Part shown: one piece after another, positions 1 to 21,339 of the stretch
Position numbering within the stretch: position 1 is the stretch's first letter
How the letters are laid out: each line of letters opens with the position of its first letter
Virus record (IMG/VR): IMGVR_UViG_3300035665_000273
Coordinates: 1 to 21,433 of that record
DNA length: 21,433 bases
Source of the DNA: a virus
Strand: one strand, 5' to 3'
Translations under genes and position numbers: made by a program
Notes under the pieces: model-generated
The model's database searches: none
Told to the model about the DNA's origin: nothing
Seen by the model: only the letters and a program-made list of their open reading frames with translations

Positions 1-1182
1 CAGCTCAAATATCAGGGGAGCGCCTGCTGCTTTTGCTTCAATAATGCAAGCGTCCGGCTCCCAATCGTCGTACATCTCTTTCGCCTTCACCTTCAGCTCG
101 GGAAACTCCACCTTTCCCTTCCACGCATCCAGCAAAATGATGTTCACATCGTTCTCATCCTCGTCTTTGTGGAAAACACCCCAGGTCGTACACGCAGAAT
201 AGTCACTCCGCTGGTTTTTTGTGTACGCCGTGTCCCAACTTTGGATGATAAATTCGCACGGAGGCGCTCTATCTGCCTCCCAAACCCGCCACCAGTCCCT
301 TTTTACCAGCGCACCCTCTTCTCCCGTGGGCTTTTGCTGGTACTGGGCGTTCCATTTATACGGCGGAAGCTCCTCTTTTAGCGCCAGAAGCTCGTTTACA
401 GGCCAAAATTCAGGCCATAGGCTATTCCCCGACGGCAAAATCGCAGGGAACTCGATTACTTCCCACTCTGTCGCGTCTGATTTCAACACCCGGCCGGTCA
501 GATCCTTGTCCGACCAGCGCGTCATCACCACAACAATCGCCCCGCCCGGCTGCAAACGCTGACGCGGGCCAGATGTGTACCATTCGTACACACTGTCAAA
601 CACCGTCGGATCGCCCTGCGCGAGTCTCGCCTCTTGTTCTGAATGCGGGTCATCTATTATTAGTAGGTCCGCGCCTTTACCAGTAACAGTGCCGCCGACA
701 CCAATCGCAAAGTAATCCCCGCCGTGACTTGTCGCCCAACGGCCGGCCGCTTTCGAGTCCACTCTCAGTCCCACTCCGGGGAAGATCTTCGCGTAGTGAT
801 CGCTGTCCACCAGGTTCCTGACCTTCCGGCCAAATCCCACCGCCAGTTCGGCCGTGTTTGATGTCTGGATAACCTTCTTCTCCGGGTTGTTCCCCAGATA
901 CCACGCCGGCAATAAGTAACTCGCAAACTCCGACTTCGTGTGTCGCGGCGGCATGTTGATAATCAGCCGCTTCAACTTCCCTTCCGCGATCTCCTCAAAC
1001 TTCTTGGCCATGATGGCGTGGTGTCTGCCATGTATAAACCCAGGCCACATCTCTTTTACGAACGACATGAACTTGCCCTGCGCGCGCTCTCTGGCCACCG
1101 CATCCCGGTACTGCGCCACCTGCTCTAACAACTTATCCTGTTCGGCCGGCGGCAACTTCCCTATCAGCTCACTCAAGTCCAC
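1..1182 (-). CDS. terL: Terminase large subunit (DNA-packaging ATPase/nuclease), 3' end outside window
   Basis: The motor subunit that pumps DNA into the prohead and cuts the concatemer. The reading frame is open from a GTG at 1182 to base 1, giving 394 visible residues, with the C-terminal part beyond the window. A deviant Walker A (MPPRHTKSE, about residues 77-85), Walker B (LLIIDDPHSE, 173-182) and an MTRW coupling motif (220-223) mark the ATPase. SWDTA (316-320) and IEAKAAG (381-387) fit the first two acidic motifs of the RNase H-like nuclease. The GTG start overlaps the upstream stop by 10 bases and is preceded by AAGGCGA. It follows terS by two small genes in the same direction. The family call is firm; the packaging type (cos, pac or other) cannot be told from this part. 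Confidence 0.93.
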   Translation of the reverse strand, partial: MDLSELIGKLPPAEQDKLLEQVAQYRDAVARERAQGKFMSFVKEMWPGFIHGRHHAIMAKKFEEIAEGKLKRLIINMPPRHTKSEFASYLLPAWYLGNNPEKKVIQTSNTAELAVGFGRKVRNLVDSDHYAKIFPGVGLRVDSKAAGRWATSHGGDYFAIGVGGTVTGKGADLLIIDDPHSEQEARLAQGDPTVFDSVYEWYTSGPRQRLQPGGAIVVVMTRWSDKDLTGRVLKSDATEWEVIEFPAILPSGNSLWPEFWPVNELLALKEELPPYKWNAQYQQKPTGEEGALVKRDWWRVWEADRAPPCEFIIQSWDTAYTKNQRSDYSACTTWGVFHKDEDENDVNIILLDAWKGKVEFPELKVKAKEMYDDWEPDACIIEAKAAGAPLIFEL

Positions 1183-1379
1183 GGACTATTCGCCTTTTCT
1201 CTCATTGCCACAATCGACATCTCATCCCGCCGCACAGGCCCGTTTAACCGCTTCTGTATCTTTGCCAAAGTCGGATATATCGACACCGGCCGGTAATACT
1301 TCCGCCCAGCCTTCTGCTCCCGGTAGACCTGATACAACAACCGGAACGCCTCTAACATCAGCTCTTCGTCGTAACTCAC
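1173..1379 (-). CDS. Small hypothetical protein between lexA-like gene and terL
   Basis: A 68-residue charged protein of unknown function, rich in Tyr, Arg and Lys. It starts with GTG at 1379, whose GTGA overlaps the stop of the LexA-like gene, and AGGAC lies about 8 bases upstream. Its stop overlaps the GTG start of terL. These overlaps on both sides argue for a real, translationally coupled gene in the terminase operon. No domain was recognised. A small terminase-associated or DNA-binding role is possible only by position. Confidence 0.7.
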   Translation of the reverse strand: MSYDEELMLEAFRLLYQVYREQKAGRKYYRPVSIYPTLAKIQKRLNGPVRRDEMSIVAMREKANSPWT

Positions 1380-1678
1380 TCTAGTGTCCTGAAGTTGATA
1401 TACACCGGCCGCACAGATCTGCCCGCCCCCTTCACCTTCTTCACCACACCCAGCTTCACCAACCGCTTGATAATCTCATGCGTGTTCCCCATCCCACCCT
1501 TCCCACGCAACTCACATATATCCCGGATAGACGGCCCAAACCCATACTGCTTCCACCACTCATCCACAATCAAAAACACTTCCCGCTGCGCCTGTGTCAT
1601 ACCAACCCCCACACACTCCTCATACGTCATCTCCCGCCGACGACGTACCATTTCTCGATTTATCTGCACATCTGGCAT
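1376..1678 (-). CDS. LexA-type winged-helix DNA-binding domain protein (no peptidase domain)
   Basis: Residues about 27-90 (from MTQAQREVFL to GRSVRP) match the N-terminal DNA-binding domain of LexA: an opening helix, the GFGPSIRDIC turn and a recognition helix ending in a KRLVKLGVVKK wing. The protein is only 100 residues and ends where LexA's self-cleaving serine peptidase would begin, so it cannot self-cleave like LexA. The first ATG (1678) has no clear ribosome site. An internal ATG at residue 27 falls exactly at the domain edge with GAGGAG upstream and is an alternative start. A perfect 14-bp palindrome ends 12 bases upstream of the first start, which suggests autoregulation. Likely a small transcription regulator in the terminase operon. 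Confidence 0.78.
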   Translation of the reverse strand: MPDVQINREMVRRRREMTYEECVGVGMTQAQREVFLIVDEWWKQYGFGPSIRDICELRGKGGMGNTHEIIKRLVKLGVVKKVKGAGRSVRPVYINFRTLE

Positions 1679-1690
1679 ATAACTTGCTTG

Positions 1691-1704
1691 TGTAAATATT
1701 TACA
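1691..1704. repeat. 14-bp perfect palindrome, copy 1 (putative operator)
   Basis: TGTAAATATTTACA, a perfect dyad in the 40-base gap between terS and the LexA-like gene. The identical 14-mer recurs at 8958-8971 and 12739-12752. Position next to a winged-helix regulator gene suggests an operator, but the binding protein is not known. Confidence 0.7.
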
Positions 1705-1718
1705 TAGCTGTTTGGCAA

Positions 1719-2435
1719 CTACGTATTTTCTCCAGAAATATCCCCCCCGGGGGTCTGCGTTTCTGGAGATGACGGGGGGTGTTCCGATTCTGGGGGAAAT
1801 TGTTCGAGGGGATTACTATGCATATGCGCGTCGGAGTCCCATTCTGCATTTGGGGGTGTACCCGTACCCTGGGGTTCATCACCCGCCAATTCCACTAGCA
1901 GGGAATTCGCGTCAACGTCAACGGCATCGGCCGAGCCGAGCATCATGCTCTTGAGTTGATCCAGTATCTGGGAACGTATCGCACCGCTGTCCTGGATATG
2001 CGTAATCTCTTTGCGTTCGGTGAAGGCCGCGACTTCTGTCACTTGCCCCAGGACTTTGGCCGCTTGTATGCGTGTTGCGGGCTTTGTGTCGGGATCAATC
2101 AGCGCGGAAGTGAGGGAAGAAATCACCAGGGAGCGCAAAGCTTCAGCGGTATGCAACGCCGCCACCTGTTTAGCCCGTTCCAGGGCATCTATTTCCATTT
2201 GTATTCTGCTATCGGCCTTAAGCCTACTGGCATTGTTCCCGATTGTTTTCGGCGTTCCCCTGTCGCTGTATGCTTTGCGGTACGCATCAGCGCCTGTCAT
2301 TCCTTCCAATACCAGCGCTTCGGTGAACCGCTTTTGCTTTGCTGTTAGGCCTGTCCGACCAAGCCGCAACGCAGAATCAATACCCTTGCTCTTTATCGTT
2401 TCCTTTACTTGTTCTCTTATGGCTTTCCTACTCAT
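1719..2435 (-). CDS. terS: Terminase small subunit (Terminase_2-like)
   Basis: Recognises phage DNA and loads the large subunit. The segment from about residue 29 (GLTAKQKRFTEALVLEG) through GADAYRKAYS and a TIGNNASRLKAD stretch has the typical arrangement of small terminases that bind DNA with an N-terminal helix-turn-helix. A helical oligomerisation region follows (about 80-150). The last 55 or so residues are rich in Pro, Glu, Ser, Asp and Gly and probably disordered; part of this tail is encoded by G/C runs near 1741-1800. At 238 residues it is longer than many relatives because of this tail. It is the first gene of the leftward packaging operon, with a GAAGATCAGCCC leader before the ATG. 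Confidence 0.85.
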   Translation of the reverse strand: MSRKAIREQVKETIKSKGIDSALRLGRTGLTAKQKRFTEALVLEGMTGADAYRKAYSDRGTPKTIGNNASRLKADSRIQMEIDALERAKQVAALHTAEALRSLVISSLTSALIDPDTKPATRIQAAKVLGQVTEVAAFTERKEITHIQDSGAIRSQILDQLKSMMLGSADAVDVDANSLLVELAGDEPQGTGTPPNAEWDSDAHMHSNPLEQFPPESEHPPSSPETQTPGGDISGENT

Positions 2436-3651: not shown

Positions 3652-4332
3652 ATGAAAATTCATTTCATCCAAAAATCTGCAAACCGGAAAACCGGCGCAA
3701 TACCAGTAACCTACAGCGAGCGCGGCACCTGCCCGCCATCATGCCCGCACTACGAGTCGGACTGCTACGGCGAGGATTTTTATACTCGCCTGGCCTGGGA
3801 CAAAGTACCGACCAGGGGTGCATCATTGGCCGACACTTGCGACCGCATAGCCGCCCTGCCAGATGGGGAACTATGGCGCTTCAATATCGCCGGTGACCTA
3901 CCAGGAAAGGGTGAAACCGTAGACCCTGCCGCCCTGGGTGAAATAGTCCGAGCCAATATCGGGAAACGAGGATTCACTTTCACGCATAAAAAATCCGACG
4001 ATGCAATCAGCTGGATTCGACACGCAAACGCCTGGGGCTTTACTGTCAACCTATCGGCCGACGATGCCGGTGAAGCGGACAAGCTTGCCGCGACCGGCCT
4101 GCCGGTGGTCTGTATCGTGCCGATGGACACGCCCGAGCGCACCACCACGCCGGAAGGCCGAGCCATCGTTGTATGCCCCGCGCAGACCCGCGATGATAAG
4201 ACTTGCAAGACTTGCGGATTGTGCGCGGCCGGCAACCGCAAAGTAATTGTCGGATTCCGAGCGCATGGTACACGCGCCAAGCAAACCGACCAACGCGCCC
4301 GCCGAGTTATCCCGATTCAAGCCGCCAACTAA
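3652..4332 (+). CDS. Phage/plasmid-type protein with two cysteine clusters
   Basis: A 226-residue protein with a first cluster C27-x3-C31-x6-C38 in a TCPPSCPHYESDCYG setting and a second C185-x2-C188-x2-C191 cluster, plus C63, C154 and C175. Between them are several short hydrophobic strands (LWRFNIAG, RGFTFTH, FTVNLSADD, VVCIVPMD, AIVVCPAQ) of the kind seen in a repeated strand-helix fold. The layout suggests bound zinc or an iron-sulphur cluster. It resembles uncharacterised phage and plasmid proteins; a distant relation to radical-SAM or gp37/Gp68-type proteins is only a guess. The ribosome site is GGGGTG. It is the largest gene of this operon. Confidence 0.75.
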   Translation: MKIHFIQKSANRKTGAIPVTYSERGTCPPSCPHYESDCYGEDFYTRLAWDKVPTRGASLADTCDRIAALPDGELWRFNIAGDLPGKGETVDPAALGEIVRANIGKRGFTFTHKKSDDAISWIRHANAWGFTVNLSADDAGEADKLAATGLPVVCIVPMDTPERTTTPEGRAIVVCPAQTRDDKTCKTCGLCAAGNRKVIVGFRAHGTRAKQTDQRARRVIPIQAAN

Positions 4333-4945: not shown

Positions 4946-5142
4946 CAAATCAAATGATGTTCACCCTGTACCTGATCGAGTCCGACGATGGCTCGGTCAG
5001 GGTTGTGACCGACTACACCGGACAGGGTGATCGCTGCCTTGCGTTGGGGGTGGAGATCATGCAGTCACTTGCCATGATCCAACCCCATACCGGCGGCGCA
5101 CTATCGTTCGTAATGCCTAGCACTACCGATGTTGAGCATTGA
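4942..5142 (+). CDS. Hypothetical small protein, end of rightward operon
   Basis: A 66-residue protein from the ATG at 4942 (MTNQMMFTLYLIESDDGSVR at the start), coupled by ATGA to the previous stop. A start at 4915 is also open but lies deep in the upstream gene. The last 42 bases overlap, tail to tail, the end of the leftward primase gene, with no terminator visible between the two operons. Confidence 0.65.
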   Translation: MTNQMMFTLYLIESDDGSVRVVTDYTGQGDRCLALGVEIMQSLAMIQPHTGGALSFVMPSTTDVEH

Positions 5143-5955
5143 CTGGGTCAGGCTTTGCGTCAACCCGAACAGGCCAACACGCCGATGGTAGTCGTTGGCA
5201 TCCTCGCCCGCAAGATCAGACATCCAAGTAGGCCAGCCGATACTTGCAGCGGCTTGCTGCCCTGTACCGCTTTCGTCGTTGTCCACAATGACCAACCCCT
5301 GCGGCAGCGACTCAGCAACGCGCATCATGTTGCCAGCAGAAAAGCAAATGTGCAGGGTATACCGCTGCTTCATCTGACGCATGGCCGCGCGAACGGATAA
5401 CCCTGTGGCATATCCTTCACACACAATGTTGATGCCCTTGTTGTCGAACGTAAAGGTGGCTCCCGCTGTACGCTGGCCGTACAAGAACCGCTTGGTTCCA
5501 TCAGGCCATATCTGTTGCAGTCCGACGAGTGACTTGCCAGCGCGCATCGGGATCAGAAGGACAGGCTTATTCTCAATGTCCAGCACGATGCCCTGCTCGT
5601 CGGGGAAACCCTTACTTTCAAGGTAAGGGTGAGTCCGGTTGCCGCTAGCGTTCAGCATACCGACAGCCTTGCCTACCGCTGCACTCGCAAGCTTCGCACG
5701 TTCGCGCTCGGCCTTCGCTTGGTCGACAATGATCGCCCGCATATCCAAGTTCAGACGGTTGATTTGGTCAGGCTTCCACAAACTGACAACGGTGTTGGTC
5801 GCATGGTTCTGCACGAATCCATGATCGCCCATGAACTTGACTGCGCCATTGCGCTTGCGCGGGTGATCCTCTGTCGGATACCGCTGCCACATACCTATGG
5901 GCGGCAGCTCGTCAATGATGATGCCATGTGATCTGGCGAATTGAATGAAGTCCAT
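5101..5955 (-). CDS. Toprim-domain DNA primase-like protein
   Basis: A 284-residue protein with a Toprim catalytic domain: Glu180 in INIVCEGYATGLS, the VDNDESG motif with Asp225 and Asp227, and a later EDANDY (251-256). Toprim domains bind the magnesium ions that drive primer synthesis in DnaG-like primases. The N-terminal 170 residues hold the GDHGFVQN and LLIPMR segments seen in phage and plasmid primases, but there is no CHC2 zinc finger, so this is a short primase or one using another DNA-binding part. It starts two bases after the helicase stop with GGGGAG upstream, so the two are likely made together and act at the replication fork. Confidence 0.85.
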   Translation of the reverse strand: MDFIQFARSHGIIIDELPPIGMWQRYPTEDHPRKRNGAVKFMGDHGFVQNHATNTVVSLWKPDQINRLNLDMRAIIVDQAKAERERAKLASAAVGKAVGMLNASGNRTHPYLESKGFPDEQGIVLDIENKPVLLIPMRAGKSLVGLQQIWPDGTKRFLYGQRTAGATFTFDNKGINIVCEGYATGLSVRAAMRQMKQRYTLHICFSAGNMMRVAESLPQGLVIVDNDESGTGQQAAASIGWPTWMSDLAGEDANDYHRRVGLFGLTQSLTQSMLNIGSARHYER

Positions 5956-5957
5956 GA

Positions 5958-7439
5958 TTATCTCCCCACGCTTTTCAAGAACTGCTTCAGTTTCTTATCA
6001 ATGTACCGCTTGGTATCTGCCTCCAACATCTGCGGCGAATCATCGTTCAGACCGCGAGGCCAGACGCCAAACTTTTCCCTGTATGTGTGACTAGCCCTGC
6101 CCTTACTCCAACCCTGATAACGCATGAGCCAGACCATCTGATTCCAGAATGCCTGCTTGCTCTCGCGCGGCACGTTGCCAGACAACTCAATCATCTGGCC
6201 GTCGACTTCTGTCACCAGGTTCCGACGTTCACGCACATGGCCGCAGTTGAAACAGGTATCGCCACCGCCCCACAGAATCTGGCAGACAGGACACTTACTC
6301 TCCTTCTTCTGGCGCTCAGTCAGTTCCTTCTTGGCCTTCTCTTTACCATCTTGCAGTTCGTGAACACCATCCTCAAACAGTTGATCCCAATCCTCACGGA
6401 AACGCAGGTAGTTGCCGGAGTGATCCAGCCATATGGCAAAAGGCTTGGCCGCAGGATCGAGCTGGTTTGCGCGCATCACCCTGCCCATCTGCTGCACATG
6501 AGAACTAAACGACTTGGAGAATGGCCGAGCAGACACGCCGATCATAACGTGTTCGTTGTCGAATCCTTTGGTCAAGATATCGCAGGCAATCAGACCGATG
6601 ATCTTCGAGTCAGGCTTGGCAAAGTCCTCAATGACTTGCCGCTTCCATTCTTCGTCATCCTTGTAGCTCAGACTGACAAAGTTGTAGCCGAGTGCTTGGA
6701 ACTTGGCGGCCAAGTCTGCGCCGTGTGCAACACCAGAAGCAAAGACAATCGTCTTGCGTGGCTCACCAAATATCTCGCGTGTTTTCTTTGCCCACTCCTG
6801 CACAACATCGCCTGTAATCTTCAGGCCACGCTCTGTCGCATCAGCCTGTGACCATTCACCAGCAACCTTCTTCGCGCCGGTCATGTCCACTTCCTTTGCA
6901 ATGAACACACGCAAGGGTACGAGCGATCCCTTCTCCACCAGCTGCCGAGTGGTGATAGGACTAACGACGTTCGAGTATGTGCTTGCCAAGCCCTTCGTGA
7001 ATGGGCTGGCCGACAACCCGACAACCTTCACGTTCGGATTGTTCTTGATGAACTCGATGGTTTGCTTGCGCTGCGCGTGGCATTCATCTACCACCAGCAA
7101 GTCAAGGCCAGGAAAGCTGCCACGTTTCTCTAGCGTTTGTGCCGAGCAAACTTGGATAGGCTCATACGGTTTGTACCGCCAATGCCCTGCTTGCAGTACG
7201 CCGTGATCGACTTTGTACTTGTCGAGCCGCTTGCTGGTCTGATCGCACAGCACGATACGATCCAAGATCATAGCGGCCTTGCTACCTTTCTTACGAGCTG
7301 CTTCCAACATGGCGATAGCAATCTCCGTCTTGCCACCGCCTGTCCCCAAGTACAACAACTGCGTTCTGTGTCCCCTTGCAAATCCTTCTCTGAGTTTCTC
7401 TATTGCTTGTTCTTGATAGTCCCTGAGTTGTAGCGACAT
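5958..7439 (-). CDS. SF2 DEAD/DEAH-type DNA helicase with C-terminal zinc finger
   Basis: A 493-residue ATP-dependent helicase. From the preferred start, motif I is GTGGGKT (32-38), motif II DECH (118-121), motif III SASP (143-146) and motif VI QQMGRVMR (316-323). The RDYQEQAI segment just after the start is a Q-motif-like adenine-binding element. A four-cysteine finger follows (C383, C386, C396, C399; CPVC and CFNC). The C-terminal part (KAFWNQM, GRASHTYREKFG) resembles a conserved end of phage RecG/UvsW-like and Rad25-like helicases. ATG 7439 is chosen over GTG 7457 because AGGAGG lies five bases upstream. Likely replicative or recombination helicase, paired with the adjacent primase. Confidence 0.9.
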   Translation of the reverse strand: MSLQLRDYQEQAIEKLREGFARGHRTQLLYLGTGGGKTEIAIAMLEAARKKGSKAAMILDRIVLCDQTSKRLDKYKVDHGVLQAGHWRYKPYEPIQVCSAQTLEKRGSFPGLDLLVVDECHAQRKQTIEFIKNNPNVKVVGLSASPFTKGLASTYSNVVSPITTRQLVEKGSLVPLRVFIAKEVDMTGAKKVAGEWSQADATERGLKITGDVVQEWAKKTREIFGEPRKTIVFASGVAHGADLAAKFQALGYNFVSLSYKDDEEWKRQVIEDFAKPDSKIIGLIACDILTKGFDNEHVMIGVSARPFSKSFSSHVQQMGRVMRANQLDPAAKPFAIWLDHSGNYLRFREDWDQLFEDGVHELQDGKEKAKKELTERQKKESKCPVCQILWGGGDTCFNCGHVRERRNLVTEVDGQMIELSGNVPRESKQAFWNQMVWLMRYQGWSKGRASHTYREKFGVWPRGLNDDSPQMLEADTKRYIDKKLKQFLKSVGR

Positions 7440-7456
7440 GATTCCTCCTGCCAGCA

Positions 7457-8626
7457 CTAGCCCGCTGGTGTGGGCATCTGTAATTTTATACGTTCACCGA
7501 TCCATTTCATCACAGGTACAGCCATTGAATTTCCTAATGCTTTGTACCGTGGACCATCGGGAGAATCTATCGCCTTGCGCCAAGGGATGTTTGTGTATCC
7601 GTCTGGGAATCCTTGCAGCCGCTCGCACTCAATCGGCGTTAAGCGACGTACGGCCATGTTGGATTGCATGACACTACCTTCAAAGCCCCCGCCAGCGGTA
7701 CGCGCTTTTAGTGTGCCAAAGGCATCAACCATTGCGTTTTGCTCTTCATCTAAACCAATCGGCTGCGCTACGCCATGCACATCTAGTCGATTCAACGTAA
7801 ACGACACTTCTTCATTCCAACCGCTGCCTTGACTATTCTGCGACGCATGCCCAGCACCTTGCAGAGCATATGCTGGTTGCGCCACAGCTAATACGGCGCC
7901 TTCCTCAACATCACGCGCACCCAATGCATTAAACATTCGTGCGGTGATTGTGCCAATGAGATGACCATTAGCAACTGATTGATGTGTTAACTTTCCCCCT
8001 CCACATTCTGTGTCGAGACTGCCAGCAACGCTTGGTACAAAGTCGGCGGCAAACTTTTGCCCCGCTTTTCGGCTCGGCGCAGGATTCCCGCGCAAGCTTT
8101 CTGGCTCAAATAAAACCGCTGCGGCACGTCGCCAGTCTCCAAGGTATCCGACAACGAACACACGGCGGCGGCGCTGTGCCACTCCGAAGTACTGAGCGTC
8201 AAGCACTCGGTAGGCGAACCCATACCCGAGTTCTGCCAACGCCCCGAGGAAGGAACCAAAGTCCCGTCCACCGTTTGAACTGAGGACACCCGGCACGTTT
8301 TCCCATACGCACCACTCGGGTCTAAACCTATCAAGAACTCCGACATAGGTAAGTGCAAGGTTACCTCTTGGGTCTTCGAGTCCACGCCGGAGTCCGGCAA
8401 CGGAAAAAGATTGGCAAGGGGTTCCGCCGACCAGAAGGTCAATTGGCTCAAGGTTCCACTCCTTATACTTGGTCATGTCCCCGTAGTTGCGGACATCAGG
8501 ATAGTGATGTGCAAGCACGGCAGATGGGAAAGCTTCGATCTCGGAGAACCCGACAGGCTGCCAACCCAATGGGTGCCACGCTACCGTCGCTGCTTCAATG
8601 CCGGAACAGACAGACAGGTATTTCAT
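7457..8626 (-). CDS. DNA cytosine-C5 methyltransferase
   Basis: Transfers a methyl group from S-adenosylmethionine to carbon 5 of cytosine. All core motifs are present: I (SVCSGIEAATVAWHPLG, 5-21), IV with catalytic Cys71 in GGTPCQSFSVAG, VI WENVPGV (108-114), VIII QRRRRVFVVG (151-160), IX starting RRLTPIECERLQGFP (327) and X GNSMAVP (365-371). The variable region between VIII and IX, which sets target specificity, is long (about 165 residues) and rich in Gly, Ala and Ser. It is coupled by ATGA to the ParB-like gene and overlaps the helicase region at its end. Probably an orphan enzyme that protects phage DNA from host restriction; no partner endonuclease is visible. Confidence 0.94.
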   Translation of the reverse strand: MKYLSVCSGIEAATVAWHPLGWQPVGFSEIEAFPSAVLAHHYPDVRNYGDMTKYKEWNLEPIDLLVGGTPCQSFSVAGLRRGLEDPRGNLALTYVGVLDRFRPEWCVWENVPGVLSSNGGRDFGSFLGALAELGYGFAYRVLDAQYFGVAQRRRRVFVVGYLGDWRRAAAVLFEPESLRGNPAPSRKAGQKFAADFVPSVAGSLDTECGGGKLTHQSVANGHLIGTITARMFNALGARDVEEGAVLAVAQPAYALQGAGHASQNSQGSGWNEEVSFTLNRLDVHGVAQPIGLDEEQNAMVDAFGTLKARTAGGGFEGSVMQSNMAVRRLTPIECERLQGFPDGYTNIPWRKAIDSPDGPRYKALGNSMAVPVMKWIGERIKLQMPTPAG

Positions 8627-9441
8627 CCGTCTAACTTTTTAAGTTTTTTGAGTAGCGATGTGACTTGCTTTTTTAATTCACCATTCTCGCGCTGGTACAT
8701 ATCGCGACTGATGGTCATCTCTTTTAATTCTATCTCGGCCGCACGAAGTTGTGCGCGCAAATCCCTGATGATCGACTCTGCTTTTTCCTTCTGTATGTCA
8801 TCAATGCTTGCCGCTTGAACAACAGTCAACTGATCTTGCAGGTCTTCGTTTTCTTTACGCAACATCTGGATCGACGCTTGCATATGCTCACGCTGGATTT
8901 CATCCTCGTTGAATTCTGCAACGCCATCAGACTTAAACTGGCCTGCTTCTTGCTTAGTGTAAATATTTACATTTTCATCGGGCTTCTTCGTCTTTGATTG
9001 TTTCGGTTGCTTCGATTCTTTCAACTCCTTGCGAATGTTGAACACCAGCATATGGCTCACGCCAATGTGGTTGCCGATGATCCGATCCGACTGCTCCTGC
9101 CACTCTGGATCAGACACGACACGGATCACCATCTTGCGCTTGTCTGCGCTGCTTGGCCGCAGTCCATGCCCCTTGTTGGCTCCCATGCCATACCACTCTG
9201 CGTCGCGCGCAGTACCGTCATAGACATCGGCCTCGATGGTCAGCTTCTTCAGCCGCTTGGTGGCGAAGTACCGATGAAAGCCATCGGCCAGCCAATAGTT
9301 CTGCCCTTCTGCGAACACGGTGATCGGCGGGAATGTATCGCCGTTCTCCATGTCCTGGGCAAACTGGGCGACGATCTCCTTCTTCATCTCCCGCGACTGT
9401 GTGTGGCCGTCTATTCTTATTTTGTTTACATCAATAATCAT
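8623..9441 (-). CDS. ParB/Srx-fold protein with HTH and long coiled coil
   Basis: A 272-residue protein. The N-terminal domain has the ParB/sulfiredoxin signature: DVNKIRIDG (4-12), a helix, FPPITVF (37-43) and LADGFHR (51-57). A helix-turn-helix follows (about 116-140, SDRIIGNHIGVSHMLVFNIR), then a Lys-rich linker and a coiled coil from about 185 to the end. Similar phage and plasmid proteins are annotated as ParB-like nucleases, but the fold is also used for ATP/CTP-linked chemistry. ATG 9441 is preferred: it has GGGGATTAGACG upstream and overlaps the stop of the 41-residue gene as ATGA. It is upstream of and coupled to the methyltransferase. A DNA-binding role is likely; partitioning is not supported, as no ParA is seen. 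Confidence 0.83.
   Translation of the reverse strand: MIIDVNKIRIDGHTQSREMKKEIVAQFAQDMENGDTFPPITVFAEGQNYWLADGFHRYFATKRLKKLTIEADVYDGTARDAEWYGMGANKGHGLRPSSADKRKMVIRVVSDPEWQEQSDRIIGNHIGVSHMLVFNIRKELKESKQPKQSKTKKPDENVNIYTKQEAGQFKSDGVAEFNEDEIQREHMQASIQMLRKENEDLQDQLTVVQAASIDDIQKEKAESIIRDLRAQLRAAEIELKEMTISRDMYQRENGELKKQVTSLLKKLKKLDG
8958..8971. repeat. 14-bp perfect palindrome, copy 2, inside the ParB-like gene
   Basis: TGTAAATATTTACA, identical to the copies at 1691 and 12739, here inside coding sequence for the linker of the ParB-like protein (NVNIYTK). It may be an intragenic operator or a nucleoprotein-organising site. Confidence 0.65.
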
Positions 9442-9563
9442 TCGTCTAATCCCCAGAAGATTGCTAACACGGACAACAGGCCAATCATGATTAACATGCC
9501 CATGCCCACCAGAAGTCCCGAAAGAAACGGGATATGCAGCATCAAGTCGTACCAAGATTTCAT
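9438..9563 (-). CDS. 41-residue single-span membrane protein
   Basis: ATG 9563 overlaps the stop of the glycosyltransferase gene, and its own stop overlaps the ATG of the ParB-like gene, both as ATGA. The protein begins MKSWYDLMLHIPF and has a hydrophobic helix of about 22 residues (LSGLLVGMGMLIMIGLLSVL and following), ending GLDE. The perfect coupling on both sides makes it a convincing gene. Function unknown; it could anchor a neighbouring protein to the membrane. Confidence 0.72.
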   Translation of the reverse strand: MKSWYDLMLHIPFLSGLLVGMGMLIMIGLLSVLAIFWGLDE

Positions 9564-10678
9564 ATCAGCAGATACCTCCCAACTGGATTCGACAACGAAT
9601 AGTTATCGTCATCGCTCCTGCTCCACTGCGCGGCGTTAGCCAGGTTTGCAGACGGGCAAGAGAAGTTGTGCTTGGCTTCCACCATGGCCAAGTAGTTTTG
9701 AAGGATCGGAATGCAAGACTGCTTGCGCTGCGGCAAATGGTGGTAACCGCCGGGCAACTGGTTGCTGCGATCCAAGACATCCGGGTCGCGGGCTGTAATC
9801 ATCTGCCCGATCATCGGATCATCAGACAATATCACACGCCGCCGGCAGTGCCGTTTCATCCAAGTCAGCTCCTTCAAAATGATGTGCGCTGGTGGCAGGA
9901 CAGTCTCGGTCTGAAGCTTATCCCCGCCCCGCAGGAACATCGTGCCAACGTCATCCTCGACAGAGCCTGTACCAGCGTAGCTGCCGATGGCGTAGTAGAT
10001 CTCGTTGTACCAACCGCACTTGCGACGCGCCAGCTCCTGTGCCTGTGCCAGATCAGCGTCGAAGAACCGCTTACGCATGGAATCAAACCGCAGGATAGGC
10101 AGGCCACCGTTACAGAATTCAAATACGTCCTCGAAGATCTGCTCGAACGGCTCGTCGTACGCCCACCAGTTGCCGGACAGATCAACCTTCAGGCCGTAGC
10201 CATCTTGCTCTGCCGCCATCGAAGCCGCGACGATGTTCTCGACAACCGAGAAGAAGCCTGCGCTCGGTGGCTGGTAGCTGATGTAGCCGTGCATAGCACC
10301 AGCACCTGGAGCAACCACGTCATCGGCCTGCCCTTGCAGGGTGTACCAATCATCTTCCTCGATGTGCCAATGCCGATTGGTCTGCTCGTATCCCAAACAG
10401 CCGGCGATCTCCTGCGCGTACCAGAAGTGACGTGGTAGTTCGGCCGGGATCATCTCGCGGATCTCATCCCAACCCAACACCCCCCAGTGGTGCAGACGCG
10501 CCGCTATGGCTGCGACACGCAGGTTGCCGGGGTACTTGTAGGCCATCTCGAATAAAAGCGGCACAGCGGCTTCTGGTGCGGTTCTGAGGCCTTGCGACAT
10601 CAGGCCGACTAACTTCACGGTGTCGGCGTGGAGATCCGGCGTTTCATCCGGCAGCCGGTAGCGGTTGAACTGGATCAT
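9560..10678 (-). CDS. FUT8/GT23-like putative fucosyltransferase
   Basis: A 372-residue protein with the outline of GT-B fucosyltransferases of the GT23/O-FucT superfamily. After a helical N-terminal region, GFFSVVENIV (141-150) and LKVDLSGNWWAYDEPFEQIF (163-182) parallel the acceptor-side start of FUT8. LRGGDKLQTE (249-258) matches the GDP-fucose-binding RRTDKVGTE motif, VILSDDP (282-288) matches YLATDDP, and 326-350 (with SCPSANLANAA) matches the final motif. The start has AAGGAGGATTAA upstream and overlaps the previous stop. It is coupled to replication and DNA-modification genes, not to the sugar-nucleotide genes far to the right. GDP-fucose is the likely donor by motif and because the phage makes it. 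Acceptor unknown: protein, glycan, lipid or modified DNA. Confidence 0.7.
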   Translation of the reverse strand: MIQFNRYRLPDETPDLHADTVKLVGLMSQGLRTAPEAAVPLLFEMAYKYPGNLRVAAIAARLHHWGVLGWDEIREMIPAELPRHFWYAQEIAGCLGYEQTNRHWHIEEDDWYTLQGQADDVVAPGAGAMHGYISYQPPSAGFFSVVENIVAASMAAEQDGYGLKVDLSGNWWAYDEPFEQIFEDVFEFCNGGLPILRFDSMRKRFFDADLAQAQELARRKCGWYNEIYYAIGSYAGTGSVEDDVGTMFLRGGDKLQTETVLPPAHIILKELTWMKRHCRRRVILSDDPMIGQMITARDPDVLDRSNQLPGGYHHLPQRKQSCIPILQNYLAMVEAKHNFSCPSANLANAAQWSRSDDDNYSLSNPVGRYLLI

Positions 10679-11091
10679 TTAATCCTCCTTTGTTTTGGTC
10701 TGCCTTTGGTGACACCCCACTGATTGTTCCGGTTTTGATGTTCAATATTTGATGCCAAAAAGAAAGTCCCACGGCGCTCGGCCATAACTTTCCTTTTTAA
10801 ATTATTTTTCCAGTTTCTATCGCCGGTCTGCTGTGAGTCTAGATTTACCATCCAGTCCAGCGTCTTGATATCGTGGCTGCGATCGGTGTCCCACAGCCTG
10901 TCTGCCAGTGGTTTTAGACACAGGCCAACAAAAGATTGAACTCGCATCTTGTTGGTCGGTGGTTGGCGTTTCAGGGTTTTGTCTGGAACCTCAATCCCCA
11001 ACCCTTTTAACCACCACCACAACTGCCCAACAGTGACATCGGCGCGGAACGCCTTGATCAACATGGCATCGTAGAGTCTTTGCTTATCCAT
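10675..11091 (-). CDS. Hypothetical basic protein
   Basis: A 138-residue, strongly basic protein (MDKQRLYDAMLIKAFRADVT at the start) with a Lys/Arg-rich C-terminal half, suggesting nucleic-acid binding. ATG 11091 is preferred over a TTG at 11094. It overlaps its upstream neighbour by 8 bases and is joined to the glycosyltransferase start by ATGA. No domain recognised. Confidence 0.68.
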   Translation of the reverse strand: MDKQRLYDAMLIKAFRADVTVGQLWWWLKGLGIEVPDKTLKRQPPTNKMRVQSFVGLCLKPLADRLWDTDRSHDIKTLDWMVNLDSQQTGDRNWKNNLKRKVMAERRGTFFLASNIEHQNRNNQWGVTKGRPKQRRIK

Positions 11092-11503
11092 CAAGATCGC
11101 CCAGATCTAACTCGTTGATCTCAGGATGCCGGTAGATTTCAATGACCTGCTTCTCTCTGTTTATTGTCGACGTATAACTTCCCTTGCCCCACAGTTTGGA
11201 TGCGTAGGCACCCGCGTTGGAGCGCACCACCTCGGAATCATGCGGCGGATACGGTATCTCTACTACCTCGTTGGGCTGCACCGGGGCCAGGTACTTGAGT
11301 ACATATTCCCGCATGAAGCCGTACTGAATATCGCCAGACTCGTAGTACCGTGGCTTCTTGTCCTTGGGCTTTTCCTTTACCACCTCAAGCTTACCCCACT
11401 CGTTCTCGCCGCAGATCACCTTGAACTGGATGTGACCCTTGCTCTCCAACTGCTTCAAGCCGATCAAGGCCGACTTCAGTATCTTTTGAAAGACTGCTTC
11501 CAT
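11084..11503 (-). CDS. Hypothetical protein
   Basis: A 139-residue protein with a mixed alpha/beta look (MEAVFQKILKSALIGLKQLE at the start), a Lys-rich middle (EKPKDKKPRYYESG) and an acidic end. The start has a very strong ribosome site (GGAGGGGAGT). It is the second gene of the long leftward operon. No known family recognised; a regulator or DNA-metabolism helper is possible by position only. Confidence 0.7.
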   Translation of the reverse strand: MEAVFQKILKSALIGLKQLESKGHIQFKVICGENEWGKLEVVKEKPKDKKPRYYESGDIQYGFMREYVLKYLAPVQPNEVVEIPYPPHDSEVVRSNAGAYASKLWGKGSYTSTINREKQVIEIYRHPEINELDLGDLDG

Positions 11504-12848: not shown

Positions 12849-13724
12849 ATGAAACTTACCAACAAACACGGTCTGCCACAGACCTTTATCAATGTCATTC
12901 AGCGGCCTACTTATAGCAGAGGTAGCTCAGAGATCAGCGTCACTGAGATCCTGTCGCCACCGCAGCTAGTACAACTACGCCGCCGTCATGCAGATGATAT
13001 CGAAGTCGACGCGGCAGATCAGGTCTGGAGTCTGTTCGGCTCCGCAGTCCACAACATATTGCAGCACGGCCAAGACGAGAACCACGTTGTCGAGGAGCGC
13101 CTGTTCACCACGTTTGATAGCTGGAGTATCTCTGGTGCTATCGACTTGCAGACCTTTCAGTCTGACGGCTCTGTTGTCATCTCTGACTACAAGGTGACAT
13201 CTGCCTGGGCAGTCCAGCAGCAGAAGACCGAGTGGGTGGATCAGCTGAACCTGTACGCATGGCTAGTCGAGCGCGTGAAAGCGCATCCGGTTACTGGCCT
13301 ACAGATCATCGGCATCGTTCGGGATTGGAGCCGCAGAGAAGCTGCCCTGAAGGACACCTACCCGCAAGCGCCTATCGTTACGCTGGATATCCCGCTGTGG
13401 GATTCAGAGACACGCGAGCAGTTTGTGCGTGACCGACTGCGCCTGCACAACGAGGCTAACTTCGCGGCCGTCTCTGGCCAGATGCCAACCTGCACGTCAG
13501 AGGAAATGTGGGAGAAGCCAACCACGTTTGCCATCATGAAGGCCGGTGGTGTTCGTGCGAAGAAGGTCTGTGCCACGCAGGAAGAAGCAGACGCATTGAT
13601 TAAGACTAAGTTCCCCGGCCATGAGGTCGAGGTTAGAGAGGGCGGCAGGACACGCTGTGAGTCTTTCTGTCAGGTCGCACCATTTTGTGAGCAGTACAAA
13701 CTTTACCAACAGGAGAAGTCATGA
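12849..13724 (+). CDS. PD-(D/E)XK nuclease of the RecB/Cas4 type
   Basis: A 291-residue exonuclease-like protein. Motifs in order: GSAVH (64-68), EE (82-83), GAIDL with Asp99, SDYKVTSAW with Asp113 and Lys115, and QLNLYAWL (132-139), as in RecB- and Cas4-family nucleases. Three C-terminal cysteines (C270, C274, C280) may bind an iron-sulphur cluster as in Cas4 and AddB. The start at 12849 has GGGGAGG upstream; an earlier in-frame ATG lies in the promoter. With the ERF and SSB-like proteins just downstream it likely resects DNA ends for single-strand annealing recombination. Confidence 0.86.
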   Translation: MKLTNKHGLPQTFINVIQRPTYSRGSSEISVTEILSPPQLVQLRRRHADDIEVDAADQVWSLFGSAVHNILQHGQDENHVVEERLFTTFDSWSISGAIDLQTFQSDGSVVISDYKVTSAWAVQQQKTEWVDQLNLYAWLVERVKAHPVTGLQIIGIVRDWSRREAALKDTYPQAPIVTLDIPLWDSETREQFVRDRLRLHNEANFAAVSGQMPTCTSEEMWEKPTTFAIMKAGGVRAKKVCATQEEADALIKTKFPGHEVEVREGGRTRCESFCQVAPFCEQYKLYQQEKS

Positions 13725-13870
13725 AATATCTCGTCGCTATCTGGGCTATCGCTTCCGCATCCATGGCCTACGCCAGCTGCACATCACACAATTTCTGTGA
13801 CACCCGTGGCAACTGCACGTTCTGCACTACTTGCTGCTATGGCGGTGTGTGCAACACCACCTGCAACTAG
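13721..13870 (+). CDS. Secreted cysteine-rich mini-protein (8 Cys)
   Basis: A 49-residue protein joined to the nuclease stop by ATGA, with AGGAG 6 bases upstream of the ATG. Residues 1-18 form a signal peptide (MKYLVAIWAIASASMAYA) with an AYA cleavage site. The mature part of about 31 residues has eight cysteines (20, 26, 32, 35, 38, 39, 44, 48), enough for four disulphides in the periplasm or outside the cell. It is also rich in Thr, Asn and Gly. No family recognised. It is too short for ordinary ORF calling. It is odd within a recombination operon; possible roles are an inhibitor, toxin or surface protein. The lipoprotein alternative (YAS-C) lacks the usual Leu at -3. Confidence 0.75.
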   Translation: MKYLVAIWAIASASMAYASCTSHNFCDTRGNCTFCTTCCYGGVCNTTCN

Positions 13871-16556: not shown

Positions 16557-16902
16557 GGATAAAGCAGAAGTAATGCCAAATATAGATTACATATATTCGG
16601 CTGTGATAGCGGACAGTGAGGCACTGGAAGAGGCGAAGATGACGTTGGAGATCATTAAGAAAACTGATCCGGGCGTTTACGATGAGATGATTAACGACAC
16701 GCTTTCTTTGATTCGCAAAGCGTTGAGCAGTTCTATCCTTAGTGTTGTCGATAGGATGGTTAAAGTAGAGGTAGAAGCGGAGCGCGAGGCGTGTGCGAAG
16801 GTGGCTGAAGAGATGGGCAACATAGACGGAAACATGAACAAGACATGGCGCAACGGATGCTTTGACGTTGCGTTCGCTATCCGCGAGAGAGGCGCGTCAT
16901 GA
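16549..16902 (+). CDS. Small protein with AEREACA module
   Basis: A 117-residue acidic helical protein from GTG 16549 (AAGGAG upstream). The C-terminal part VEAEREACAKVAEEMG to FAIRERGAS is a paralogue of the modules at 16047 and 17912; the N-terminal half is unique. Coupled by ATGA to the glycosyltransferase. Function unknown. Confidence 0.72.
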   Translation: MDEDKAEVMPNIDYIYSAVIADSEALEEAKMTLEIIKKTDPGVYDEMINDTLSLIRKALSSSILSVVDRMVKVEVEAEREACAKVAEEMGNIDGNMNKTWRNGCFDVAFAIRERGAS

Positions 16903-17663
16903 TTGACGGCAAGCCAACCATCATGATCGGCACCCCTGCGTACGGCGGTGCGATGTTCATGGAGTACGTCGACAGTCTCGTGCGGAACATCAGCTTCCTA
17001 GAAAGCAAAGGGATCAAGACGCGCTGGCAGTTCATGAACAAAGAAGCGCTGATTACCCGTGCGCGCAATGAGATAGCCAGATACTTCTTGGATGAAACGC
17101 GGGATGACTATCTGATGTTCATCGACGCTGACATCTGGTTCCCGACCGACGGTATCTATCGGCTGCTCCAGCATGAGAAGGATGTGGTGTGCGGGATCTA
17201 TCCCAAGAAGTTCATGTTCTGGGATCGTATCCGGCAGGCTGCTCTGCGCGGCGAAAAGGATATCGAGAAGTTCGGCTGCTCGTATGTGCTGAATGCGGTG
17301 GATGATCAGGGTGATCCTGACGCAGTACCGCTCGGACCCGACGGCCTGGTAGAAGTACTGCACGGCGGCACAGGATTCATGATGATCCACAGGAACGTAC
17401 TGAAAGCCATGCGCTTCAAAGTACCCACCTACCGCACGTCATTGATACAGGATAACGGACAGTTTCTCGCCCCACTCACCCGAGAGTTCTTCGGCACCAG
17501 CATCACAGAGCTAGGATTGCTGTTGTCAGAGGACTATCACTTCTGCGAGTTGTGGAAGAAGGAGGGCGGTAAAATTTATGCAGACCCCACGATTGAGTTA
17601 CGCCACGTAGGCCAGCACGTCTACGCAGGGGATCTTATGCGCGCGGGGCGCAACAACACATAG
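16899..17663 (+). CDS. Anp1/GT2-like glycosyltransferase
   Basis: A 254-residue GT-A-fold glycosyltransferase. It opens with PTIMIGTPAYGGAMF, has ITRARNEIARYFL (52-64) and the metal-binding DxD in FIDADIWF (74-81), then VVCGIYPKK and a later EDYHFCELWKK (about 209) that fits the catalytic acidic site. This set is typical of Anp1/Mnn9-like phage glycosyltransferases. Donor and acceptor sugars cannot be told. First enzyme of the glycosylation block. Confidence 0.82.
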   Translation: MIDGKPTIMIGTPAYGGAMFMEYVDSLVRNISFLESKGIKTRWQFMNKEALITRARNEIARYFLDETRDDYLMFIDADIWFPTDGIYRLLQHEKDVVCGIYPKKFMFWDRIRQAALRGEKDIEKFGCSYVLNAVDDQGDPDAVPLGPDGLVEVLHGGTGFMMIHRNVLKAMRFKVPTYRTSLIQDNGQFLAPLTREFFGTSITELGLLLSEDYHFCELWKKEGGKIYADPTIELRHVGQHVYAGDLMRAGRNNT

Positions 17664-18305: not shown

Positions 18306-18502
18306 CCAAAGAAGAAGCATGGCTTATGTGGATGAAAGAATCCAATCGCTACGTCGAATACGATTGGGACACGATCAAGAAGTCCTCGCACTGGCAAGCG
18401 TTCTCCCGTGGTTGGGATGCGGCAGCAATCAATGTTAACGGCTGGGACGGTGCCTACAAGATGGGCATGGAAGCAGGCAAAGAAATGGAGAAGAACACTT
18501 GA
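18302..18502 (+). CDS. Hypothetical small protein
   Basis: A 66-residue protein rich in Trp, Lys and Glu (MTKEEAWLMWMKESNRYVEY at the start), with WQAFSRGWDAA in the middle. Similar small acidic proteins occur in phages without known function. AGGAG precedes the ATG. Its TGA stop overlaps the TTG start of the fucosyltransferase. Confidence 0.7.
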   Translation: MTKEEAWLMWMKESNRYVEYDWDTIKKSSHWQAFSRGWDAAAINVNGWDGAYKMGMEAGKEMEKNT

Positions 18503-19443
18503 AAGTCGCCGTACACAATCACTACGAGTTCATCACCCGCGACGGCTACCTGTTCAAGAACGAGAACAGCGATGTCGGCCACAACCTGCTACGCCCGTGG
18601 GTAGAGTTGTACAAGTTGTGCCAAGCCAACGGCATAGAACTCTACACGCTTGACCAGGTTGATCCGGCAGAGCTGGACTTCGTGATCTACATGGATCGCC
18701 CACAGGTAGAGCCTGAGATCGGCAACGCCAAGAAGGCGCTGATCTTGTACGAACCAGACCTGATCCTGCCGCAGAACTGGGATACCGCGTATCACGATCA
18801 GTTCGCAAAAGTACTGACGTGGGATGACCGGCTGGTCGGGCGTGGCAACTACGTCAAGCACAACTTCACCGTGGACTGGAGCAGCAGGCTGAACACCGAG
18901 ATCCACAGATCGGAGTTCGAACGCCGCAAGTTACTGACGCTGATGCAGACGGCCAAGAACAGCCAGCAACTACACAGCCTGTACCCCAAGCGGATAGAAG
19001 CCATCTTCTGGTTCCAGCAGAACGCCATGTTCGAGTTTGATCTTTACGGCAGAGGCTGGGATATCAAGACCTTCTTCTGCGCCAAGGGTACGACGAACAA
19101 CAAGCTGGCTACGCTGCACAACTACCGCTTTGCCCTGACGTTTGAGAACTGCGACAACGCGGTCGGCTATATCAGCGAGAAGATCCTGGACGCCTTCATG
19201 GCCGGCATCGTCCCTGTGTACTGGGGCGCACCCAACATCCATGACCACATCCCGCGCGAGTGCTTCATTGACATGACGGACTTCGGCAGCTGGGAGGAGT
19301 TGTACGGCTTCCTGCGTGGCGTGGACTACCACCGCTACTGTGAGTATCTGGAGAACATCGACGCGTTCATCCGGTCAGACAAGAAGTTCAGCAACGAGCA
19401 TGAGATCAAACAACTGTACCGACTGATCGAGGAGAACAAATGA
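18499..19443 (+). CDS. GT10-type alpha-1,3-fucosyltransferase
   Basis: A 314-residue enzyme with the C-terminal GDP-fucose-binding signature of the GT10 family: LTFENCDN (213-220), [20 protein letters not shown] (224-243), and PRECFID (252-258). The N-terminal domain holds the acceptor side. GT10 members transfer fucose from GDP-fucose to GlcNAc or other sugars. Start is TTG 18499, coupled by TTGA to the previous stop, with GGAGAAG upstream. It is immediately followed by both genes for GDP-fucose synthesis, which confirms the donor. The acceptor is unknown. Confidence 0.87.
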
Positions 19444-20429
19444 AGGCACTGATCACAGGCGTGACCGGACAAGACGGTTCATACCTAGCAGAGCTGTTGT
19501 TGGAAAAGGGATACGAGGTACACGGCATCAAGCGCCGTTGCTCCAACCTGAACACCGAACGGGTGGATCATCTCTTTGGCAATCCCAACTTCCACCTGCA
19601 CTACGGTGACATGACCGACGGCAGCAACCTTGCTCACTTGGTCAAGAAGATCAAGCCCACAGAGATATACAACCTTGCAGCCCAGAGCCATGTGGCTGTC
19701 AGCTTCGAGCAGCCTGAGTACACCGCCAACGCTGATGCCGTGGGTACTCTGCGTTTACTGGAAGCGGCACTCTGGGAGGAGGCCAAGTTCTACCAAGCAT
19801 CTACCAGCGAGATGTTTGGCGCTAGTCCTGCGCCACAGGATGAGCAAACGCCGTTCTATCCGCGCAGTCCGTACGGTGCAGCCAAGCTGTACGCCCACTG
19901 GATCACGGTCAACTACCGCGAGGCCTACGGTATGTACGCCTGCTCGGGCATCCTGTTCAACCACGAATCCCCACGCCGTGGCGAAACATTCGTCACCCGC
20001 AAGATCGTGCAGGGTCTAGTCAGGATCAAACGCGGCCAGCAAGACAGGTTGTTGCTGGGTAACTTGGACGCTCGCAGAGACTGGGGTCACGCCAAGGATT
20101 ACGTCCGCGCCATGTGGCTGATGCTTCAGCAGGACGAGCCAGAGGACTTTGTGATTGCCACCGGCTACACATGGACGGTCAGACACTTTGTGAAAGCGGT
20201 CGCTGCCAGACTATGCATGAACCTAGTCTGGAGCGGCAAGGGCGCAAATGAAACCGCAAGCTGGCAGGGCAAGGCGGTAGTGGCTATTGATGCCAAATAC
20301 CTGCGGCCGGCAGAAGTGGACACCCTGTGCGGAGATGCCACCAAGGCGAAAGAGAAACTAGGCTGGGTGCCTGAGTACACATTTGACCAACTGGTAGACG
20401 AGATGGTGGAGGCTGAACTTGAAAGGTAA
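19440..20429 (+). CDS. gmd: GDP-mannose 4,6-dehydratase
   Basis: Converts GDP-mannose to GDP-4-keto-6-deoxymannose, the first step to GDP-fucose. A 329-residue short-chain dehydrogenase/reductase: TGVTGQDG (6-13) binds NADP, STSEMFG (121-127) carries the catalytic Thr and Glu, and Y145-x3-K149 (SPYGAAK) is the catalytic pair. [17 protein letters not shown] (173-189) is a GMD hallmark. Length is a little shorter than the roughly 370 residues usual for bacterial GMD. Coupled by ATGA to the fucosyltransferase. Such genes occur in some cyanophages, so a phage copy is plausible. Confidence 0.95.
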
Positions 20430-21339
20430 AAAGATCATGGTGCTGGGTCACAAGGGTATGGTGGGTAGCGCCATATCCAGGTTGCTCAAGCACAAGAAGT
20501 ATGAAGTGCTGACGGTGGATGCTGACCTACGCAACCCGCCGGAAAACCTGTATGCAGACAAGCCAGACTACGTGTTCATCTGTGCAGCCAAGGTCGGCGG
20601 CATCATGGCCAACAGCACGTACCCTGTGGACTTCCTGTACGACAACACGGCCATAGCATTCAACGCTATTCACCAAGCACATGAGGCTGGCATCCAGAAC
20701 CTGATGTTCTTGGGATCAAGCTGCATCTATCCCAAACACGCGCCGCAGCCAATCAAGGAAGAGCATCTGCTGACAGGCCCGCTTGAGCCTACGAATGAAG
20801 CCTATGCCATCGCCAAGATCGCAGGCATCAAGCTGTGCGAGGCGTACCGCAAGCAGTACAAGCGCAACTACGTGGCCGTCATGCCAACCAATCTCTACGG
20901 CATCGGTGATAAGTACGACTTGCAGAACAGCCATGTCTTGCCGGCGCTGATCTACAAAGCGTATCAGGCCAAGCAGAACAACGAACGCACGATGACTGTC
21001 TGGGGTACAGGCAAGGTCATGCGCGAGTTCATGTTTGCCGATGACCTGGCAGATGCCTGCGTGTTCCTGATGGAGAAGGGCTACGACGGCGGGCTGATCA
21101 ATATCGGCACAGGCAAGGACGTGACTATCCGCGAGGTAGCAGACTTGATTTGCCGTACCGTTCAGTTCAAGGGCGAGCTGACGTTCGACAACTCCAAGCC
21201 TGACGGCACACCACGCAAACTGCTCGATGTATCCAAGTTGCACAAGCTAGGTTGGAAGGCCAAGACTTCTTTGGCAGATGGCATCAATGAAACGTACAAA
21301 GACTTCCTGCGTAGACATATCATGAGGGCTAGCCTATGA
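20419..21339 (+). CDS. fcl: GDP-L-fucose synthase
   Basis: Epimerises and reduces the keto product to GDP-L-fucose. A 306-residue enzyme: GHKGMVG (10-16) binds NADPH, GSSCIYP (99-105), and Y129-x3-K133 in [17 protein letters not shown], followed by MPTNLYG (155-161) and SHV with His172, match Escherichia coli Fcl (WcaG) almost residue for residue in these blocks. Start is TTG 20419, with GGAGG 6 bases before it; ATG 20437 would cut the first strand. It overlaps the gmd stop by 11 bases. Together they complete the pathway from host GDP-mannose. Confidence 0.95.

Follow-up and report, generated by a model that had tools for sequence, protein, structure and literature searches.

A distant relative of FUT8 in an uncultured aquatic phage, probably a fucosyltransferase serving a phage-encoded glycan cassette

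The stretch of DNA analyzed here (the window) comprises 21,433 nucleotides, positions 1 to 21,433 of the IMG/VR virus record IMGVR_UViG_3300035665_000273. The open reading frame at 9560–10678 on the minus strand is a genuine conserved gene of an uncultured aquatic phage, hereafter GTx. It encodes a FUT8-like GT-B glycosyltransferase of 372 amino acids, as assigned from the ORF, a family alignment, AlphaFold2 modeling, and Foldseek. Its start codon is an ATG with a GGAGG ribosome-binding site (10684–10688, minus strand) a short way 5′. The ORF is not a chance reading frame because relatives are encoded at ~40 viral loci and at two loci in bacterial metagenome-assembled genomes (MAGs). It evolves under purifying selection, with a dN/dS of 0.107–0.113 against its 96% relatives and 0.17–0.22 against its 65–66% relatives. 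No membrane-span-like stretch was found in the protein.

GTx is embedded in a minus-strand operon of replication genes. Its ATG overlaps, as ATGA (10675–10678), the end of a gene for a 139-aa protein with no assigned function (10675–11094). At its 3′ end, GTx is coupled by a second ATGA (9560–9563) to a single-span hydrophobic peptide of 41 aa (9438–9563; KD19 2.64), just as the original prediction had described; this peptide is kept only in the nearer relatives. The ParB-like gene that follows (8623–9441; phrog_1033, E 1.2e-14) overlaps the peptide gene by ATGA at 9438–9441, provided that ATG 9441 is its start, the mechanically called ORF running from TTG 9555. This gene in turn overlaps, at 8623–8626 and again by ATGA, a gene for a C5 cytosine-specific DNA methyltransferase (Dcm; 7457–8626; PF00145, 4e-52). 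The ParB-fold and DNA-methyltransferase genes predicted downstream of GTx are thus borne out by their profile matches. A helicase (5958–7457; phrog_16; ResIII/DEAD/Helicase_C) and a Toprim primase (5101–5955; phrog_2249; Toprim_3) complete the series. Across dozens of contigs of the clade, these genes keep the order GTx-(peptide)-ParB-(Dcm)-helicase-primase; Dcm is the variable member, and in many relatives it was not found next to GTx. The Dcm gene shares ~79–81% DNA identity over 535–556 bp with genes of a Roseobacter phage and a Manatee Spring phage, whereas the rest of the window is essentially without a near DNA match; this difference in identity points to a recent exchange of the Dcm gene.

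Glycan genes occupy the right part of the window on the plus strand. They include a GT2-like glycosyltransferase (16899–17663; phrog_1574), which has a homologue in the cassette of a distant phage described below, and a GT10 fucosyltransferase (18499–19443; PF00852, 7.7e-17). These are followed by gmd, encoding GDP-mannose 4,6-dehydratase (19440–20429; TIGR01472, 532 bits, cut-off 415), and fcl, encoding GDP-L-fucose synthase (20419–21339; NF047922, 448 bits, below the cut-off of 500; E 1.7e-134). gmd lies 8.8 kb and fcl 9.7 kb from GTx, compared with the ~8 kb stated originally.

Sequence searches of GTx in Pfam, PHROGs, NCBIfam, and the PDB gave no credible match, and zero homologues were found among the 50,697 phage records searched. 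NodZ and FUT8 family models were absent from the Pfam matches of GTx and its family at E ≤ 10. DUF3833, Fas_alpha_ACP, and CENP-S were rejected as the identity of GTx, being sub-threshold and different between members. A PF05830 search of the two bacterial MAGs was empty and, having had no positive control, carries no weight. Bacterial GTx is rare: it was present in 1 of 369 genomes in the class of one of these MAGs (locus L041), namely in that MAG itself. The family alignment comprised 32 members, down to 23% identity; one locus (L014) was left out because its contig is broken in many genes, which was taken as sequencing error.

The conserved blocks of this family are GFFSxxEN (aa 141–148; 10235–10258), WWxY (171–174; 10157–10168), K220..Y224, RGGDKxxxET..P (250–263), SDD (285–287; 9818–9826), CPSxN (341–345, CPSAN in GTx; 9644–9658), and PxxxY (365–369), GFFSxxEN being nearly invariant and WWxY invariant. 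The three motif regions of the original prediction, 249–258 (R..DK...E), 282–288 (VILSDDP), and 326–350 (..SCPSANL), all fall in these family-wide blocks. Missing from it were the N-terminal blocks GFFSxxEN and L.VD..GNWW.YDEPF (163–178), which carry detectable similarity to NodZ.

The fold of GTx was predicted by AlphaFold2 from the 32-member alignment (pLDDT 88.5, pTM 0.89). An all-helical N-terminal region (aa 14–114) is followed by two Rossmann-like halves. When the model was compared with the PDB by Foldseek, FUT8 ranked top (best E 1e-6), followed by Arabidopsis FUT1 (AtFUT1), NodZ, and POFUT1/POFUT2. Each of the best 50 PDB matches was a GDP-fucose transferase (FUT8, AtFUT1, NodZ, or POFUT1/2), and no outsider to the GT11/23/37/65/68 superfamily scored higher; the TM-scores were ~0.4 and the global rmsd was high. 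In a viral structure library, an O-fucosyltransferase and Fut1/Fut2-like proteins were among the top matches. The most remote usable member, from bacterial locus L042 (26% identical), was modeled separately (pTM 0.80), and FUT8 was again its top match (E 1.1e-6). NodZ was matched by both models with E 1e-3 to 1e-4. The comparison with FUT8 and NodZ that had been proposed as a check therefore yielded a GT-B fold in both models, with these two enzymes among the nearest solved structures.

Relatedness to NodZ was also examined at the profile level. NodZ-family proteins gathered by a phylum-wide genome search were aligned into a NodZ-like set, whose profile retrieves both NodZ and FUT8 from the PDB. 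In hhalign, the GTx family scored 34.7 against this set (P 0.00096, probability 22%), with GFFS and LxVDxxGNWWxYDEPF of GTx paired with GFGD and LAIDWRGSCYLDEPF of NodZ. The true score exceeded those of all 150 column shuffles (mean 15.6, sd 2.8, max 23.3), and the control scores were 17.9 for the reversed profile and 12.0 for the GT10 family. The global alignment of the two profiles, collinear across the motif blocks, scored 22.1 versus 3.4 ± 2.3 for shuffles. Profile similarity to known fucosyltransferases was accordingly recovered in part: a weak NodZ-like signal stands above shuffles, and ordinary HMM searches were blank for GT23. GTx is not a member of GT10 either, with no PF00852 match and an hhalign score of 12.0, which is at the shuffle level. 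The phage thus carries two unrelated fucosyltransferase folds, GT10 and GTx, as had been proposed.

The residues of known function in FUT8 are found in the segment R250-G-G-D253-K254-L-Q-T-E258 (9905–9931), the counterpart of FUT8 R365/D368/K369/E373. The spacing of R250, D253, K254, and E258 is identical to that in FUT8, and all four are invariant in 32/32 members. In FUT8, R365, K369, and E373 are essential, with roles in pyrophosphate binding and, for E373 on a mobile loop, as the catalytic base (PMC7033129), and D368 contacts OH4 of fucose and couples the loops (PMC12930516). The match of region 249–258 to functional FUT8 residues, claimed originally, therefore stands. By itself the loop pattern is only suggestive, since 0.24% of shuffles of the GTx protein yield it; it becomes convincing because it is fully conserved at 23% identity and sits on the same fold element. 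The R..DK...E loop is absent from the NodZ-like set. The pLDDT of the GTx model dips at 251–260 and 301–320, roughly where the two mobile loops of FUT8 would be, which is compatible with such loops in GTx and no proof of them. Outside the R..DK...E loop, the residue correspondences with FUT8 are approximate: hhalign places GFFSxxEN opposite the GxGxx donor/acceptor loop that NodZ and FUT8 have, SDD corresponds to ATDD in FUT8 and CTDS in NodZ, and CPSAN is the probable counterpart of the pyrophosphate-binding segment TFSSQ of FUT8, with its exact register inferred. The guanosine contact H363 of FUT8 and its neighbor R366 are not kept (F248 and G251 in GTx), so the donor contacts of GTx differ from those of FUT8.

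The fold, the catalytic loop, and the controlled profile comparison agree with the predicted FUT8-like GT-B fucosyltransferase, and GTx almost certainly belongs to the FUT8/NodZ/FUT1/POFUT superfamily with a FUT8-type loop. It is a new, distant family within this GDP-fucose GT-B superfamily, and it is not GT23 by sequence. We did not place it in GT23 because its sequence does not assign it there, and its FUT8-like function is predicted from fold and loop. With FUT8, a eukaryotic alpha-1,6-fucosyltransferase of GT23, GTx shares the R-x-x-D-K-x-x-x-E loop, the xDD strand end, and the motif order in addition to the top fold match. In contrast to FUT8, to which it is ~14% identical in the structural alignment, GTx has no C-terminal SH3 domain and no membrane anchor, and its helical N-terminal region differs. 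NodZ, the rhizobial alpha-1,6-fucosyltransferase of GT23 (PF05830), resembles GTx in its detectable profile, size class, solubility, and collinearity, whereas NodZ, like the NodZ-like proteins used here, has no DK...E loop, and the Pfam NodZ model misses GTx. POFUT1/POFUT2 (GT65/GT68) and AtFUT1 (GT37) share the GT-B superfamily fold by Foldseek and a donor-site arginine, but their fold scores to GTx are lower and their acceptors are different.

That GTx is no degenerate or non-catalytic GT-like protein of lectin or regulatory type, as its lack of a known family match might suggest, is indicated by catalytic-loop residues that are invariant from phage to bacteria at 23–26% identity and by the strong purifying selection, which make that explanation most improbable.

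The genomic company of GTx was compared across loci; apart from the distant phage locus L038 and the bacterial loci, the counts below come from related phages. In a 65-kb record with an identical GTx (locus L102), the cassette runs on past the right end of the window and holds GT2, a second GT2/Anp1-like transferase, RfbH (626 bits, NCBIfam equivalog cut-off 423), an acetolactate-synthase-like TPP enzyme (best PDB match 8rph, E 1e-110), and an SDR. GT10 was present in 16 of 18 GTx-bearing records, both misses being fragments that end before the region, and in 0/4 related records in which the replication operon is present and GTx is absent. RfbH was found in 14/14 GTx-bearing records reaching the region and in none of the four without GTx; this split would give p ~3e-4 if the records were independent, and is only an indication because they are related. 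A GT2-type transferase was present in 15/16 GTx-bearing records and 0/4 without GTx, and the second GT2/Anp1-like transferase in all 14 that reach the region and in none of the four (for RfbH and this second transferase, the 14 include interrupted copies in G004, an error-ridden contig). The phage's own genes for GDP-fucose are optional, as gmd and fcl were found in only 3/18 GTx-bearing records. This weakens the argument from their proximity, and we put the association with GT10 and RfbH in its place.

The same genes are physically linked elsewhere. At L038, GTx heads a cassette of overlapping or adjacent genes, being coupled by ATGA to GT10, with GT2, a GT2-type transferase, RfbH, a split TPP enzyme, and an SDR; the replication genes of the clade are not around it. 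In the bacterial locus L042, GTx, an RfbH-like enzyme, fcl, and GT10 stand in a row, with a glucose-1-phosphate cytidylyltransferase adjacent. These two unrelated contexts are the strongest evidence: because both pair GTx with glycan genes, it belongs with them; co-inheritance with GT10, GT2, RfbH, TPP enzyme, and SDR together with this linkage makes its membership in the cassette highly likely. That it sits among replication genes in this clade is an arrangement peculiar to the lineage.

The stretches with RfbH, TPP enzyme, and SDR (L102:8539–13951; L038:9567–13454) are conserved in GTx-bearing phages and seem to encode the synthesis of a yersiniose-like, C4-branched 3,6-dideoxy sugar: RfbH together with a YerE-like enzyme is a route to such C4-branched dideoxy sugars (PMC12247030). 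Enzymes characteristic of CDP-3,6-dideoxy sugar synthesis are thus also part of the cassette.

We propose that GTx is a soluble inverting transferase, probably fucosyl in type, that helps build a phage-specified oligosaccharide. GDP-fucose, the likely donor, would bind between the two halves of the protein, R250 and K254 would neutralize and hold its pyrophosphate, and D253 would help to position the sugar. E258, on a mobile closing loop, would deprotonate the acceptor hydroxyl, giving inversion in one displacement step, and L-fucose or a related 6-deoxyhexose would move from GDP to a sugar acceptor. GDP-fucose would come from the phage gmd/fcl where present and otherwise from the host; fucose itself is not certain because these genes occur in so few records. 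GT10, whose presumed donor is also GDP-fucose and whose profile is unrelated to that of GTx, and GTx would probably fucosylate two positions of one oligosaccharide made by the GT2-type enzymes. The two separate targets originally suggested are unsupported: GTx, GT10, the GT2-type transferases, and RfbH are present or absent together, which favors one shared glycan. A cytoplasmic acceptor is favored because GTx has no membrane span and no export or ligation gene was seen among the cassette proteins examined. The oligosaccharide would be assembled in the cytoplasm, with a virion protein as its most likely carrier; PMC12619734 cites virion glycosylation in mycobacteriophages. Among acceptors, a virion protein ranks first, at slightly less than an even chance, followed by a host lipid-linked glycan, with DNA unlikely. 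Taken as a whole, a fucosyl GT-B enzyme for a phage glycan, likely on a virion protein, is a probable explanation. That this family outside GT23, with GT10, the GT2-type transferases, and the RfbH/YerE-like/SDR enzymes, builds a self-specified fucosylated branched-octose oligosaccharide on virion proteins is a more speculative extension; if true, it would be a phage-owned protein glycosylation system with a FUT8-style reaction.

Alternatively, GTx might alter a host surface glycan (LPS/O-antigen or a lipid-linked precursor), for instance as a barrier to superinfection in the manner of phage serotype-conversion enzymes. The bacterial relatives do lie in LPS-like sugar loci (the L042 cytidylyltransferase, RfbH-like enzyme, fcl, and GT10; the GT4-type gene at L041), RfbH and YerE-like enzymes typically belong to O-antigen sugar pathways (PMC12247030), and the phage cassette is located with early-type recombination genes. 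On the other hand, the cassette proteins examined included no membrane glycosyltransferase, flippase, polymerase, or ligase, and no integrase was seen among the annotated genes, which cover part of the ORFs; phages that convert serotype are typically temperate. We consider this role unlikely, if the most serious of the competing ones.

Less likely still, the donor could be a CDP- or GDP-linked 3,6-dideoxy hexose, possibly C4-branched, supplied by RfbH, the YerE-like TPP enzyme, and the SDR. The far steadier presence of RfbH than of gmd/fcl beside GTx points this way, as does the nearest solved relative of RfbH, CDP-4-keto-6-deoxyglucose 3-dehydrase. However, all listed structural relatives of GTx are GDP-fucose enzymes, the FUT8 donor/catalytic residues are retained, and the GT2-type transferases of the cassette could take the branched sugar.

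Glycosylation of phage DNA at a hypermodified base would fit the ParB-like/Dcm/helicase/primase neighbors, a position conserved in dozens of contigs, and phage DNA glycosyltransferases are known. Yet the Dcm product, 5-methylcytosine, has no hydroxyl, Dcm itself was not found beside GTx in a good many relatives, and no base hydroxymethylase or thymidylate-synthase homologue was found among the annotated proteins (part of the ORFs). Related phages have the replication operon without GTx, and no DNA glycosyltransferase of the T4 AGT/BGT kind was among the listed fold matches in the PDB and the viral library. Cassette co-inheritance, the placement at L038 apart from replication genes, and the bacterial sugar loci argue against DNA as the acceptor, and on this cassette evidence we rejected a DNA-modification role, which is very improbable. 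The functional link to replication or DNA modification in the original prediction is thereby opposed: the operon seat is clade-conserved and not diagnostic, and it would have misassigned GTx. For the preferred glycan role, a place among replication genes would mean early expression in this clade with no functional link to DNA.

FUT8 is the enzyme that attaches core fucose to proteins, and in humans it alone carries out core fucosylation. A compact, soluble viral and bacterial family that keeps its loop would give a simple model and possibly a fucosylation tool, and is relevant to the origin of the FUT8-type mechanism. GTx also marks a dedicated sugar-making and transfer cassette in a widespread uncultured aquatic phage lineage, and this cassette offers a direct test of the purpose of phage-encoded fucose. 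Phage fucosylation gene sets in general are not new, since cyanophage S-SCSM1 carries gmd, fucose synthase, and several fucosyltransferases, one annotated as NodZ (PMC9602691). These were annotated from known families, whereas GTx was unmatched in the phage records searched.

Several neighboring genes were also recorded. At L041, the bacterial GT4-type transferase directly upstream of the GTx relative (59–1840, plus strand) has, in its C-terminal part, a weak O-FucT match and the motif VQIRKTDFGSN, and this part is possibly a second fucosyltransferase-superfamily domain. A 2OG-Fe(II) oxygenase (L103:11834–12580, minus strand; phrog_81, PF13759) lies beside tail genes and could hydroxylate a virion protein. 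A polyvalent protein of 1,800 aa (L102:14521–19923, minus strand), which contains ddrB-like ParB and LPD38 domains, is probably carried in the virion. In the window, a DUF7227 protein (3652–4332, plus strand; E 4e-75) is kept in some relatives. A 49-aa peptide (13721–13870, plus strand) without a Pfam match begins like a signal peptide and ends in a cysteine-rich tail (CTSHNFCDTRGNCTFCTTCCYGGVCNTTC); its gene overlaps an exonuclease gene by ATGA and is conserved in ~40 related loci, phages without GTx included.
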